DNA of 64,000 nucleotides, from assembly GCA_002069785.1 (NCBI GenBank), contig MWCA01000013.1, forward strand, positions 1-64,000. Direction: 5' to 3'. Source of the stretch: Lentisphaerae bacterium ADurb.Bin242 (GTDB taxonomy: Bacteria; Verrucomicrobiota; Lentisphaeria; Victivallales; UBA1829). Below are positions 12,111 to 17,793 of the stretch, piece by piece. The notes under the pieces were generated by a model. The model searched no databases. It had not been told where the DNA came from and saw only the letters and a list, made by a program, of their open reading frames with translations. The translations under genes were made by a program, and so were the position numbers. How positions within the stretch are numbered: the first letter of the stretch is position 1; every line of letters begins with the position of its first letter.

Positions 12111-14864
12111 ATGAAAAAAAAGTTGTTTTCTCTGTTGAGCAAAGAAATTTCCATGAAACGCATCCGGGAGCAGACCGTCCGCCTCCATTCCCTGGAAAAA
12201 TCGGTTTGTCACCGCGACTTCCGGAAATCCACGCAATACTGCGAGGAGCTCCTCCGCGAAGCGGGACTGCGGGAAGTCAAACGCTATGCGCTGTCCGCCG
12301 ACGGAAAAACCGCATACATGGATTGTGTCATGCCGCAGGCGTGGGACCGCACCGGACGCTGCTTCGTTCGAGTGGAGTCCCCTTCCCTGCCGGAAAAAGA
12401 CCGGATGCTCGCCGATACGGACGCGGAACCCCTCTGCGGCGGCATCTGGAGCGCCCCCACCCCGAAGGGCGGCATCGACTGCGAAATCGTCGATTTCGAG
12501 GCTCTCCCCGACAAAGCCGCCCCCGACGTCAAGGGCAAACTCGTGCTGGTCACGAACTATAATCAGAAGGATTACCGGCTCCTGACCGACGCCGGAGCCT
12601 CCGGGCTCCTGATCTGCGACCTCCGCGCCGCAAAAGACTATCCCGACTTCATCCGCTGGGGCAACGGCATCGGCTTCCAGGGCTGGTATCATACGGCCGA
12701 CGACAAGCGGAACGTCATTTTCCATCTCACCCCGCGCAAAACCTTCTTCCTCCGGGAACTTCTCTCCAAAGGCCCGGTCCGCGCCCATGCCGAAATGAAT
12801 ACCCGCATCTACGACGGGGAGATCTATACCGTCACCGGAATCCTTCCGGGAACGGAACCGGAGGAAATCACGCTCTTCGCGCACCTCTATGAACCCTTTC
12901 TTCCGGACGACTCCGCCGGAGCGGTCTGCTCCGCCGAAATCTGCCGCGCTCTCCGGCGGCTGGTCGACAACGGCAAACTTCCCCCGCTCCGCAAGACCGT
13001 CCGCGTGGTCTTTTCGATGGAGCTTTTCGGCTTTTCGGAATATCTTCTCGACCGGGAACGGAACCGCCGGACGCTGTATGTCATGAGCATGGACAGCATC
13101 TGCCACAAGAAAGCCCCCGGAAAAAACGCGGTGCGGACTTCCCTGCGGCGCACGGCCGACTGCACCCCCTTCTTCTCGGACCTGATGCTGCGTGATCTTT
13201 TAAAACAGAATACGCCGCACATTTCTTTCCGGGAAGACTACGGCAATTTCTCCGACGACACGTTCTGCTCCGATCCGATGATCGGCATTCCCTCCAACTG
13301 GCTGGTGTCCTCCCCTCCGATCGCTTCGTATCACCACAATACCGGCCCTCAGTTCATGGATGCCGACTGGGATATGGCGCACGATATTTCCGCCATCGCC
13401 GCCACGCTCTTCGCCACCCTCGCCACCGGTGGAAAGGAAATCTTCGCAGACCTCGGAAAAACGATCTTCCGGCTGGCGGAAAAAGAACTGAAAGAACAGC
13501 TCCGGAAGATTCGCGGCGAATGGAGATCCGGCCGTCTCGACAGCCATGACGCGGCGGGGAAAGCATGTTTTCTCACGGAGGTTCAGGAGAAAAGAGTCCT
13601 TTCCGTCAACCGCTTCCTTCCCGCAAACGCCCCGCTGTACAAAGGCGGGCAGATCAGGGAATTCCGCGAACTCTGCGCCGCCGCGCTCGGGAAAATCAAA
13701 TGCCCGGCCTTCCGGGACCTCTCCGCCGAGGAATCCCGCGCGGCCAACCGGATCGTGATCCGGCTGTTTCCCGGAATCCCGCATTCTTTTGCCCGGATTC
13801 CGGTCCCGGAAAGATACGCCGCACAACCCTTCTGCGAAGCGCTGATTTATGGATTCTTCGACGGGAAGCGGACTCTCCTCGACGCGATCCGATGTGTCGA
13901 GTATGATACCGGGCGCAAATTCGGCGACGCCGAAATAAAGAAAGCCCTCGAACAGCTGTCGATTCTGGAACGCTGCGGATACGTAAAGATTTCCAAGGTC
14001 CACAAAACCACTCCGGCGGAGCTGGAAAAGGAACTCCGCGCGCTCGGCGTCGCCCGGGGGGACAAGGTGGTGATCCACACCGCATTTTCCGCGCTCGGCG
14101 ACTTCAAAGGCGGGCCGGAGGCCTTTTGCGAAACCTGTATGAAACTCATCGGGAAGTTGGGCGTCATCCTGATGCCGACCTTCAATTTCTACACGCATGA
14201 CCGCTCCAGCGGCGTGTACGACCCCGACAGGACGCCCTCCTACACGGGTGCGGCCTCCGAAGCGTTCCGCAAGAGGAAGGATGTTTACCGCTCGCTCGAT
14301 CCGTCCCATCCCGTCTGCGCCTGGGGCAAGGACGCGCTGGAGTATGTCCGGAACCATCACAAGGTGCCGACCATGGACGCCGACTCCCCGCTCGGTCTTC
14401 TGGAGCGGAACGGGGGGAAAGTCCTGCTGATCTCCTGTCCCGGCGCCAATACATTCATGCATGTGGTGGAGACCACGAACCAGGTTCGCTGTCTCGGACA
14501 GCGGATGGAGGAATACAAACTGAAGCTCCGCTCCGGGAAGATCGTTCCCGCCCGCACATGGGCGTGGCGCGATGGAATCTGCCCGGCCTATAATCCCTCC
14601 AAAATATACGATTTCATGCGCAGGAAGGGAACCTTGAAGGAGCGCATGTTCCGCAACGCGCACCTGATGCTCTTCGACATGAGCGATTACCGCAAGGCTT
14701 ACGAAACGTTTCTCTTTTCGGAAAAGACCGGCTGCCGCCATTGCAAAATCAGGCCCCGCAAAAACGCGTTCACGGTCAAAAGCGACTGGGACGAAAAAAA
14801 GCACTGTCTGAAAAAGACCGCCGCCTATGTCGGTGACTGCGAAAGCAGGGAAGGAAACCCCTGA
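12111..14864 (+). CDS. M28/DUF4910-like peptidase fused to an AAC(3)-family N-acetyltransferase
   Basis: The product has 917 residues. Residues 15-440 resemble the M28-like aminopeptidase family with an inserted PA domain (K-G-K-L-V-L-V-T and G-A-S-G-L-L-I). Putative metal or catalytic positions are H in L-F-A-H-L-Y-E, D-D-S-A-G, M-E-L-F-G-F, S-M-D-S and Y-H-H-N. Residues 570-635 look like the winged-helix tail found in such peptidases. Residues 640-890 are an AAC(3)-type acetyltransferase: V-I-H-T-A-F-S-A-L-G, L-M-P-T-F, L-D-P-S-H-P-V and D-S-P-L-G. No signal peptide is evident. The ATG at 12111 has a weak CAAAGG upstream; Met15 (12153) is an alternative. The substrate is unknown; cleavage and acylation of an amino-sugar or peptide conjugate is speculation. 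Confidence 0.78.
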   Translation: MKKKLFSLLSKEISMKRIREQTVRLHSLEKSVCHRDFRKSTQYCEELLREAGLREVKRYALSADGKTAYMDCVMPQAWDRTGRCFVRVESPSLPEKDRMLADTDAEPLCGGIWSAPTPKGGIDCEIVDFEALPDKAAPDVKGKLVLVTNYNQKDYRLLTDAGASGLLICDLRAAKDYPDFIRWGNGIGFQGWYHTADDKRNVIFHLTPRKTFFLRELLSKGPVRAHAEMNTRIYDGEIYTVTGILPGTEPEEITLFAHLYEPFLPDDSAGAVCSAEICRALRRLVDNGKLPPLRKTVRVVFSMELFGFSEYLLDRERNRRTLYVMSMDSICHKKAPGKNAVRTSLRRTADCTPFFSDLMLRDLLKQNTPHISFREDYGNFSDDTFCSDPMIGIPSNWLVSSPPIASYHHNTGPQFMDADWDMAHDISAIAATLFATLATGGKEIFADLGKTIFRLAEKELKEQLRKIRGEWRSGRLDSHDAAGKACFLTEVQEKRVLSVNRFLPANAPLYKGGQIREFRELCAAALGKIKCPAFRDLSAEESRAANRIVIRLFPGIPHSFARIPVPERYAAQPFCEALIYGFFDGKRTLLDAIRCVEYDTGRKFGDAEIKKALEQLSILERCGYVKISKVHKTTPAELEKELRALGVARGDKVVIHTAFSALGDFKGGPEAFCETCMKLIGKLGVILMPTFNFYTHDRSSGVYDPDRTPSYTGAASEAFRKRKDVYRSLDPSHPVCAWGKDALEYVRNHHKVPTMDADSPLGLLERNGGKVLLISCPGANTFMHVVETTNQVRCLGQRMEEYKLKLRSGKIVPARTWAWRDGICPAYNPSKIYDFMRRKGTLKERMFRNAHLMLFDMSDYRKAYETFLFSEKTGCRHCKIRPRKNAFTVKSDWDEKKHCLKKTAAYVGDCESREGNP

Positions 14865-14960
14865 TTCCAGGGAAATTTTCCGGATCCGGATCGCGTCGAA
14901 CTTTCTTTCCGGCGGCGCGTCCCTTCTTCCGGTTCCGCCTCTCCGCCGGAAAAAATTCAT

Positions 14961-14989
14961 TTGCATTTTGATCCCGGAGGCTGTATAGT
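14961..14989 (+). promoter_or_regulatory. Sigma70-like promoter for the lipoprotein gene
   Basis: TTGCAT at 14961-14966 and TATAGT at 14984-14989 have a 17-base spacer. The start of transcription would be about 70 bases upstream of the ATG at 15067. Confidence 0.55.
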
Positions 14990-15066
14990 ATAGTGCTTTC
15001 CGACAGGAACAGGACAAGAAGGTTCTTTCCGTCAAGGATACACGAATTACTTTTGAAGGTTTCAAG

Positions 15067-15537
15067 ATGAGCAAACGAGAATGGTTTTCGGCAGGAATCG
15101 CGTGTTTTTTTCCCATCATGACAATATTTACCGGAGGCTGCGTCACACCGGACAAGGAAACGGAGCTCAAGCAGGCGTCCTCGAAATCCTCCTTTGCCGA
15201 AGAACAGGTTCTCGGAGAAAAAATGATCAAAGCGCTCCGGGACGATGATGCGGCCGCGTTTATCGCGCTTCTCCACAAGGATACCCGCGCCCGGTTCGGC
15301 AAAAAAGAATTCGCCGAAAATCGCGTGGAGGTGAAAAAACTCTTCGGGGAAATCGTATCCTTCCAATATCTGACGGCGCTGGAGATGCCGACATTGCATC
15401 CTCTGATCTGGAAAATCCGTTTCCGCCGCGAAGCCCGGCAGAAAAATGAACCCGCCATCGATCAGGAAGCCCTCTTCCGAATCGTTTTCGGCCGTCTGGA
15501 CGGCAAACTTTCCATCTTGAGCTTTGGTTTTCTCTGA
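15067..15537 (+). CDS. Small predicted lipoprotein with an NTF2-like flavour
   Basis: The product has 156 residues. A type II signal peptide ends in the lipobox F-T-G-G-C (Cys25), so the mature protein should be lipid-anchored in an envelope membrane. After the Cys comes a charged linker and a compact domain of about 110 residues (A-L-R-D-D-D-A-A-A-F and a late W-K-I-R-F-R-R-E). It looks like the small alpha/beta DUF lipoproteins common in Lentisphaerota. No function is assignable. It stands alone between two promoters. Confidence 0.7.
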   Translation: MSKREWFSAGIACFFPIMTIFTGGCVTPDKETELKQASSKSSFAEEQVLGEKMIKALRDDDAAAFIALLHKDTRARFGKKEFAENRVEVKKLFGEIVSFQYLTALEMPTLHPLIWKIRFRREARQKNEPAIDQEALFRIVFGRLDGKLSILSFGFL

Positions 15538-15791: not shown

Positions 15792-15820
15792 TTGACAATC
15801 CTCCTGTGGAAATATATAAT
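15792..15820 (+). promoter_or_regulatory. Consensus sigma70 promoter of the glycan-initiation operon
   Basis: TTGACA at 15792-15797 and TATAAT at 15815-15820, with a 17-base spacer, match the bacterial consensus exactly. Transcription should start near 15827, leaving a leader of about 55 bases before the GTG start at 15883. Such a strong core promoter suggests high or constitutive expression. Confidence 0.75.
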
Positions 15821-15882: not shown

Positions 15883-17793
15883 GTGATATTCTTTATTCAA
15901 AAATATTCTGTCCTATTCATTTATCCGTTGATCGCCCTGGCGCTTTCCGTTGTTTTCACATGGAGCGCGATCCGTATTCTTCCCCGTTTCGGGTTCATCC
16001 GGAAACCCGGCGGACGTCATATCCATCAGACGCTTGTTCCGCGCGGCGGAGGAATTGCGGTCATTCTTTCCTTTTTCATTGCGCTGGCAATGTATGCGTT
16101 GGACAACCGAAGCGCCGACGATATCCATATTTTCTTCTGGAAATTACTTTTTCCCGCCGTGATTCTGGCTGCCCTGGGAATGTGCGACGACCGGTATGAG
16201 GTCCGCTCCTGGACAAAGCTTCTGGTTCAGGTTCTGGTGGCCGTGGTCATCTTCAAGCTCGGCGGCCGCAAATATACGATCTGCGGCTGGCCCATACCTC
16301 CTTATCTCGCACTGCTGATCACCATCGCATGGGTCATCATCGTCGTGAACGCCTTCAATCTGATCGACGGCCTGGACGGACTGGCCGCCGGGCTGGCCGT
16401 CATTTCCGCCAGCTGCATGACCATCTGGTTCCTCCTGGTCGGCAATCGCATGAAGGAAGCCGTGACGTTCCTGATTCTGGCGGGGAGCGCGCTCGGCTTC
16501 CTTCGTTACAACTTCCATCCGGCGAAAATCTTCCTGGGGGATACGGGAAGCATGTTCCTCGGGTATGTTTTCGCGGTTCTTTCCCTTTCGACCGTGGACC
16601 GCGCCATGACCATGACCTCCCTCCTGCTGCCCCTGCTCGCCATCGGAGTCCCGCTGTTCGACGTCATTCTGGCCATCTGGCGCAGAAGCGCGCGCAAGCT
16701 CAGCAATCCGGAGGCGGGCGGAATCATGGAAGGGGACCAGGATCATCTGCATCACCGTCTGCTGCGCCAGACCAACAAGCAGACGACGACCGCGATCTAT
16801 CTGTATCTGGTCGCCTGCGGCTTTGCGGTGATTGCGCTGCTTTTCGTCCTCATTTTCAAGTCCGAACCGCTGCTCGCTTATCTTATCCTGATTCTGGCGG
16901 TCATCAGCGGCGTCCGCCACCTGGCCGGGGTGGAAATCTTCGATTCGGCCTGCCTCATTCAAAAAGGCCTGGAGAAACCGAGACGCGGGCTGCTTGTCAA
17001 CGTGGCTCATCCGTTCATCGATTTCGCCGTCATCAATTTTTCATTCTGGATTGTGATGACGCTTCTGTTTCCCCATCAGGCAAATCTGCGTGTGATGGGC
17101 ATTGCGATCGTGCCGGCGGCGCTCCTGCTGTGGTTTTCCGGAATTTACAAGGTGTACTGGCTGAGGGCCGGGATCGATGATTATTATTATCTGGCGTCGG
17201 TCGTCGTCACCGGCTCCCTTCTTTCTTCCATCTGCGTTTATTCCTCGGAATGCTCCGACCTCATCTCGATCAATGTCATTGACTACCGTATTTTTATCAC
17301 TGCCGTCCTGCTTTTCACGCTTCTCAATCTCACGCTGATCTGTACGGAACGTTTCCTGCTGCACTATGCGGAAAGCTTCTGGTTCCGGAAAATGTCCAAC
17401 TCCTGCGGAAACGTCCGGCCGGACAAACTGGTGATTTACGGCGGCGGAATGAACTGCCGTCTCTATATCAATCACCTGTACAATGTCAACAGCGCCCGTG
17501 CCGGAGGAGAAGTCATCGGGATTCTGGACGATAACATCGCCCTGCACCGGAAAAGAGTTTTCGGATTCGAGGTGCTCGGCGGAATCGACGATCTGGAACA
17601 GGTGTATCAAAAAACACCCTTTGACAAACTGGTGGTCACCACGAATGCTTTACGAAGCAGGGAACTGAAGCGGATGGTGGAATTTTCAAAAACAAACGAT
17701 GTCCGGTTGACGATGTTCAGGGCGGATGAAACCCCTCTGGAAACCTATATTCCCCTGCCGGACGAATTCAAGAAAGAGGAAATGAAAGAATGA
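15883..17793 (+). CDS. WecA/MraY-type glycan-1-phosphate transferase fused to a CapD/FlaA1-type N-terminal half
   Basis: The product has 636 residues. Residues 1-345 are a polyprenyl-phosphate sugar-1-phosphate transferase of the WecA/TagO group: R-G-G-G near 50, D-D-R near 103, N-x-x-x-L-I-D-G-L-D-G near 162 and D-Q-D-H-L-H-H-R near 286. Residues 365-490 add four more membrane helices. Residues 510-630 form a Rossmann-like domain (V-I-Y-G-G-G, I-L-D-D). This is the membrane plus CoA-binding-like half of CapD/WbpM/FlaA1 dehydratases, without the SDR catalytic half. It should start lipid-linked glycan synthesis at the inner membrane. The GTG start has GGGAG 11 bases upstream. It overlaps the next gene by ATGA. 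Confidence 0.83.
   Translation: MIFFIQKYSVLFIYPLIALALSVVFTWSAIRILPRFGFIRKPGGRHIHQTLVPRGGGIAVILSFFIALAMYALDNRSADDIHIFFWKLLFPAVILAALGMCDDRYEVRSWTKLLVQVLVAVVIFKLGGRKYTICGWPIPPYLALLITIAWVIIVVNAFNLIDGLDGLAAGLAVISASCMTIWFLLVGNRMKEAVTFLILAGSALGFLRYNFHPAKIFLGDTGSMFLGYVFAVLSLSTVDRAMTMTSLLLPLLAIGVPLFDVILAIWRRSARKLSNPEAGGIMEGDQDHLHHRLLRQTNKQTTTAIYLYLVACGFAVIALLFVLIFKSEPLLAYLILILAVISGVRHLAGVEIFDSACLIQKGLEKPRRGLLVNVAHPFIDFAVINFSFWIVMTLLFPHQANLRVMGIAIVPAALLLWFSGIYKVYWLRAGIDDYYYLASVVVTGSLLSSICVYSSECSDLISINVIDYRIFITAVLLFTLLNLTLICTERFLLHYAESFWFRKMSNSCGNVRPDKLVIYGGGMNCRLYINHLYNVNSARAGGEVIGILDDNIALHRKRVFGFEVLGGIDDLEQVYQKTPFDKLVVTTNALRSRELKRMVEFSKTNDVRLTMFRADETPLETYIPLPDEFKKEEMKE

Follow-up and report, generated by a model that had tools for sequence, protein, structure and literature searches.

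A conserved fusion of a divergent M28/DUF4910-like domain with an AAC(3)-type acetyltransferase in Lentisphaeria and other classes of the same phylum

In a 64,000-nucleotide stretch of DNA from Lentisphaerae bacterium ADurb.Bin242 (contig MWCA01000013.1, positions 1 to 64,000; hereafter the window), we identified a gene for a single protein that joins a divergent M28/DUF4910-like domain to an AAC(3)-type acetyltransferase, a new architecture of known domains. Since the same fusion recurs across gut and environmental bacteria, the protein probably processes nitrogen-containing sugars in two steps instead of conferring antibiotic resistance. More specifically, we tentatively read it as a cytosolic bifunctional enzyme that acts on an amine-bearing, probably amino-sugar-derived small molecule, first by amide hydrolysis and then by N-acetylation: the N-terminal M28/DUF4910-like metal site would hydrolyse an amide and thereby take off an acyl group (aminoacyl, peptidyl or other), and the C-terminal AAC(3) domain would acetylate the released amine from acetyl-CoA, the net result being an acyl swap. 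The two-step reading is supported by the fold-level identity of both domains, the conservation of most active-site residues, the conservation of the fusion itself and the presence of an operon-adjacent split form; we infer the catalysis by the N-terminal half, the order of the steps, the action of both halves on the same molecule and the class of substrate. In the openly accessible literature that we searched, we found no description of an M28/DUF4910-AAC(3) fusion.

A crystal structure exists for the DUF4910 peptidase-like fold and, to our knowledge, no reaction is known for it in the literature searched. The widely conserved covalent fusion to an amine acetyltransferase provides independent evidence that an amine or amide is what this fold acts on, and makes both steps accessible to assay in one soluble protein. 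A test is needed before AAC(3) matches of this kind in gut metagenomes are taken for resistance genes.

The gene is an uninterrupted open reading frame, in agreement with the single 917-residue frame claimed in the earlier note, and is composed of the following parts.

12111..14864 (+), whole gene, 917 amino acids, M28/DUF4910-like plus helical/winged-helix-like plus AAC(3) (uninterrupted ORF, homologues, AlphaFold)
12111..12299 (+), residues 1-63, first part of the M28-like core, boundaries approximate (secondary structure of the model; analogy with the domain layout of 3k9t, PMC4000134)
12300..12794 (+), residues 64-228, probable PA-like insert with approximate limits (3iib profile alignment from residue 111; Foldseek matches to M28+PA proteins; Pfam PA, E=0.07)
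12795..13430 (+), residues 229-440, M28-like core with the active-site residues (profile matches to 2ek8, 3iib and 3k9t; Foldseek)
13431..14006 (+), residues 441-632, helical segment followed by a small alpha/beta domain with a conserved DGK motif (model pLDDT 88; position as in 3k9t)
14007..14756 (+), residues 633-882, AAC(3)/Antibiotic_NAT domain (PF02522, E=8.4e-36; PDB profile matches to 3sma, 3e4f and 6mn3)

An antisense ORF of 752 amino acids at 13200-15458 (-) overlaps the fusion gene; the plus-strand gene is taken as the real one because in dozens of genomes the relatives are encoded in the plus frame. Given the 48 fused copies found in many assemblies, we rejected a chimera produced by assembly or frameshift. 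Inspection of the translation detected no signal-peptide-like stretch at the N terminus, and this absence, together with the requirement for acetyl-CoA, suggests that the predicted protein is cytosolic.

The N-terminal part has diverged too far for recognition on its own, and therefore the family had to be built. With the query alone, no significant Pfam match was obtained for the N-terminal half (the best was PA, PF02225, with E=0.07), and neither Peptidase_M28 (PF04389) nor DUF4910 (PF16254) gave a profile match. Among 22 family members, in contrast, DUF4910 was matched by 16 (best E=4.6e-11) and Peptidase_M28 by 13. A profile of the N-terminal half made from 16 sequences detected, in PDB, the M28 aminopeptidase 2ek8 (1e-11), 3iib (1e-7), the DUF4910 structure 3k9t (6e-7) and further M28 aminopeptidases, and its alignment with 3iib spans the PA-like region. 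The AlphaFold model of the full protein, for which a 17-sequence alignment was the input, reached a pLDDT of 85.3 and a pTM of 0.83, and in Foldseek it hit 2ek8 first (E=2.5e-18), followed by glutamate carboxypeptidase II (about 1e-17) and the transferrin receptor; the matches shown were M28-fold proteins, the best of them M28+PA. Weak matches of the query to EST1 and phosphopentomutase were dismissed as noise. Family profiles and the predicted model thus confirm the N-terminal two thirds as M28/DUF4910-like, in a divergent form and with a probable PA-like insert, as the earlier note had proposed.

The same note had also recognized a winged-helix-like part, for which no significant match was obtained. 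Residues 441-634 folded alone gave a confident model (pLDDT 88), in which long helices are accompanied by a small alpha/beta domain that carries an invariant DG pair, and the middle region alone had no significant match in Foldseek, Pfam or PDB profile searches. The DGK motif pairs with residues 390-409 of 3k9t in a weak, sub-threshold profile alignment, and the alpha/beta domain takes the position of the permuted winged helix in 3k9t. By this analogy, the winged-helix label is plausible.

Conservation of the putative active site was counted over 64 relatives, with the following results.

12882..12884 (+), H258, pairs with the His of the M28 HxD motif, 64/64 (3iib profile alignment; conservation)
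12891..12893 (+), E261, family-specific invariant Glu, 64/64 (conservation)
12906..12908 (+), D266, aligned with the bridging metal-ligand Asp, 62/64 (2ek8 profile alignment; conservation)
13020..13022 (+), E304, retained Glu of the M28 Glu-Glu pair, 63/64 (profile alignment; conservation)
13092..13094 (+), D328, aligned with an M28 metal-ligand Asp, 64/64 (2ek8 profile alignment; conservation)
13257..13259 (+), D383, family-specific near-invariant Asp, 61/64 (conservation)
13335..13337 (+), H409, aligned with the C-terminal M28 metal-ligand His, 62/64 (2ek8 profile alignment; conservation)

In 2ek8, the partners of D266, D328 and H409 are metal-ligand positions. Of the complete M28 active site (HxD, bridging Asp, Glu-Glu pair, Asp and His), the protein thus keeps the first His, the bridging Asp, one Glu, the Asp and the last His. 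The canonical co-catalytic two-zinc site is incomplete, because the Asp of HxD is replaced by Y260 and the residue after E304, L305 in the query, is acidic in none of the 64 copies. Loss of the metal ligands, named in the earlier note as part of what would refute its reading, was examined on sequence and did not refute it: most M28 metal positions are conserved, although a different residue replaces the Asp of HxD and just one Glu of the pair is left. E304 aligns with the first Glu of the 2ek8 pair and with E226 of 3k9t, one residue apart from the placement in the 3k9t paper, in which Pro225 stands at the position of the conserved active-site Glu (PMC4000134); E304 is a putative general base or metal ligand.

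The closest described protein is CA_C2195 of Clostridium acetobutylicum (3k9t; DUF4910, DUF2172 and HTH_47), which resembles the fusion protein in its M28-like core with an insert, in a small C-terminal alpha/beta domain with DGK and in the conserved His and Asp metal positions. It differs in being only 435 amino acids long, in lacking the AAC(3) half and in a single Zn site with H189, D195 and H324, whereas the fusion family has an insert that looks PA-like, keeps D328 and adds the invariant E261 and D383. CA_C2195 has a single bound Zn, and its authors considered a peptidase function unlikely; from gene neighbourhoods, amino-sugar acyl transfer or amidase roles were proposed for it, and gene fusions of its homologues were mentioned in general terms (PMC4000134). 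The PA-containing M28 proteins (2ek8, 3iib and the glutamate carboxypeptidase II/transferrin receptor group) share with the N-terminal half the fold, probably the PA insert, and the positions of H258, D266, E304, D328 and H409; the fusion protein differs from them in having Tyr for the HxD Asp, one Glu of the pair, an AAC(3) fusion and no export signal.

The C-terminal third is, from its sequence, unambiguously an AAC(3)/Antibiotic_NAT domain. PF02522, the sole significant Pfam domain of the query, covers residues 655-862 with 124.1 bits against a cut-off of 25, and the best PDB match of the region is FrbF (3sma), AAC(3) chains being also matched. Two motifs are located in this domain.

14451..14471 (+), TFMHVVE, catalytic T781-H784-E787 motif (alignment; role of the motif from PMC8956665)
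14733..14744 (+), C875-x-x-C878, aligned with the C-terminal Zn-site cysteines C247/C250 of AAC(3)-IVa (alignment; PMC8956665)

TxxHxxE is the catalytic motif of the Antibiotic_NAT family, and the C-terminal CxxC of AAC(3)-IVa binds Zn (PMC8956665). T781, H784 and E787 are kept in 47 of the 48 fused copies, and the loss of CoA-site residues that the earlier note named as evidence to the contrary was not seen on sequence. The domain shares both motifs with the AAC(3)-IVa/Antibiotic_NAT group 1 enzymes, at about 27% identity, and differs in forming part of a larger protein and in its aminoglycoside contacts: W63, D67, E185 and E249 of AAC(3)-IVa correspond to F691, S699, W819 and H877, while D187 is retained as D821. 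The AAC(3) and AAC(3)-IV models match this half at E=5e-21 and 1e-18, but all NCBIfam resistance cut-offs were missed (AAC_3, 75 vs 270 bits; AAC_3_IV, 67 vs 420 bits). Because the contact residues are replaced while the catalytic ones are kept, the AAC(3) half likely acts on an amine other than aminoglycosides. Members of the fold without aminoglycoside activity include FrbF, YokD and BA2930 (PMC8956665), which are stand-alone enzymes unlike the fusion; FrbF works in the biosynthesis of a phosphonate antibiotic.

We searched 61 genomes, the window's own plus 60 relatives, and detected full-length relatives of 800-930 amino acids, proteins of about 600-650 amino acids with the N-terminal half only, and separate AAC(3) genes, with several diverged paralogues per genome. 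The named relatives are mostly metagenome assemblies of Lentisphaeria/Victivallales, many from rumen and colon samples. In a sample of the phylum, matches were obtained in 24 of 195 genomes, some of other classes, and many were about 900 amino acids long with the AAC(3) half. Among the 64 relatives examined, 48 are fused, from Lentisphaeria as well as further classes of the phylum, and 16 are not, one of these (L082) being cut by a contig end. The tree of the N-terminal halves, made by a quick method and with some long branches, requires at least 9 fusion or loss changes, indicating repeated gain or loss of the fusion. Distances of the N- and C-terminal halves within fused proteins are correlated (Spearman 0.58), for which shared ancestry alone could account. 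In the split form, an AAC(3) gene lies 4-5 bp upstream of the N-half gene in three closely related loci (L025, L026 and L027), counted as one evolutionary case; since the separate AAC(3) is of a divergent type, these loci are not simply the fusion gene split in two. A Pfam amidohydrolase follows the N-half gene by 17 bp in L025, and genes of similar size stand there in L026 and L027. In the genome contig collection, the single-protein query gave no match and a 22-member broad alignment was too divergent as query, whereas an alignment of close relatives detected relatives. The viral collection contained no relative of the fusion protein, and the plasmid matches were limited to AAC(3) genes, which aligned with 27% of the query; none was a fusion.

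The gene context differs from copy to copy. In the window, an SDR gene lies 120 bp upstream on the same strand, and a lipoprotein-like gene is followed downstream by a WecA-like plus CpsB/CapC polysaccharide cluster that begins 1 kb from the fusion gene and is preceded by the following element.

15792-15820 (+), perfect 12/12 sigma-70-like consensus, TTGACA-17-TATAAT, ahead of the polysaccharide cluster (consensus match)

Since the cluster has a promoter match of its own, the fusion gene need not belong to it. At 15883-17790 (+), the window also encodes a WecA/MraY-type Glycos_transf_4 protein fused to a C-terminal CoA_binding_3/WcaJ-N-type Rossmann domain, without the sugar-transferase catalytic part. 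Elsewhere in the window's own genome (L053, 54-4347, -), a GH20 hexosaminidase, a standalone N-half paralogue and a PIG-L GlcNAc deacetylase form one tight operon. Tight neighbours of other copies are a DegT sugar aminotransferase plus a creatininase amidohydrolase (L103), a creatininase (L097) and an Amidohydro_2 protein (L045); creatininases are rare, with 2-7 per genome, and by a rough count two direct adjacencies in 64 loci exceed the expectation. Further neighbours include MFS or EamA transporters and LacI/GntR or AraC regulators, and several relatives adjoin sugar-degradation genes (DUF4838/GH20b, GH109-type) together with such sugar-responsive regulators. Adjacency to DUF4838 glycosidases is weak evidence and was largely discounted because of a very large expansion of paralogues, with 139 DUF4838 matches in the 6-Mb assembly of the window's genome. 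Pseudopilin neighbours were likewise discounted, the genome having at least 119 DUF1559 matches (322 first-look candidates, 150 scored), another very large expansion.

An amine or amide on a sugar-like molecule is the best reading of what these data have in common, namely an amide-hydrolysing fold, amine acetylation and neighbouring enzymes for amino sugars and amides. M28-type folds typically hydrolyse amides. The two-step processing of a peptide or amino-sugar conjugate put forward in the earlier note fits the fusion, the split form, these neighbours and the intact AAC(3) residues, with the substrate and the activity of the N-terminal half standing as inferred. Against this reading speak the incomplete two-zinc site, the single Zn of 3k9t and the doubts of its authors about peptidase activity, the changing gene context and, at the window copy, a close neighbourhood limited to the SDR gene and a polysaccharide cluster with its own promoter match. 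In the main rival, which we consider unlikely, the M28-like half would be, as in the transferrin receptor, inactive as an enzyme or just a binding module for a substrate or partner, and the protein would function as an N-acetyltransferase with a module for recognition and oligomerisation. The two lost active-site residues, the transferrin receptor among the Foldseek matches and the argument of the 3k9t authors against peptidase activity (PMC4000134) agree with it, but the metal-site His and Asp are near-invariant in the 64 relatives, beyond what is expected of a scaffold, and 16 copies have kept the N-terminal half although they lack AAC(3). A special form of the two-step reading, channelled amide exchange, is rather unlikely as well: a rewired M28-type site would strip an N-acyl or aminoacyl group from an amino sugar or aminocyclitol, with E261 and/or D383 replacing the lost ligand, and the tethered AAC(3) would re-acetylate the same nitrogen. 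If true, this would be the first activity assigned to a DUF4910-type fold.

Synthesis of a modified surface polysaccharide, as proposed for CA_C2195, in which the N-terminal half would transfer or remove an acyl or aminoacyl group on an NDP-amino sugar and AAC(3) would acetylate it, appears improbable. DUF4910 gene neighbourhoods include amino-sugar N-acetyltransferases (PMC4000134), the DegT sugar aminotransferase abuts one copy and the WecA-like cluster lies near the window copy; however, that cluster has its own promoter match, and several relatives adjoin the sugar-degradation genes and regulators instead. Antibiotic detoxification, by cleavage and acetylation of an aminoglycoside or peptidyl-aminosugar antibiotic, is very improbable: the matches to the resistance models and the CxxC shared with AAC(3)-IVa are set against the wide miss of the NCBIfam cut-offs, the replaced contacts and the several diverged paralogues per genome, which fit metabolism better than resistance.

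Odd contexts, compared with the others, were observed for two fused genes from related MAGs, which adjoin protein-quality-control genes, one with a trigger factor gene 10 bp upstream (L072, 7153-11007) and one with a Lon protease gene downstream (L073, 105-5758). Another fused copy (L093, 6166-10401, +) is preceded by a B12-binding radical SAM gene at a distance of 34 bp and followed by a gene with a weak match to GDSL-type hydrolases.
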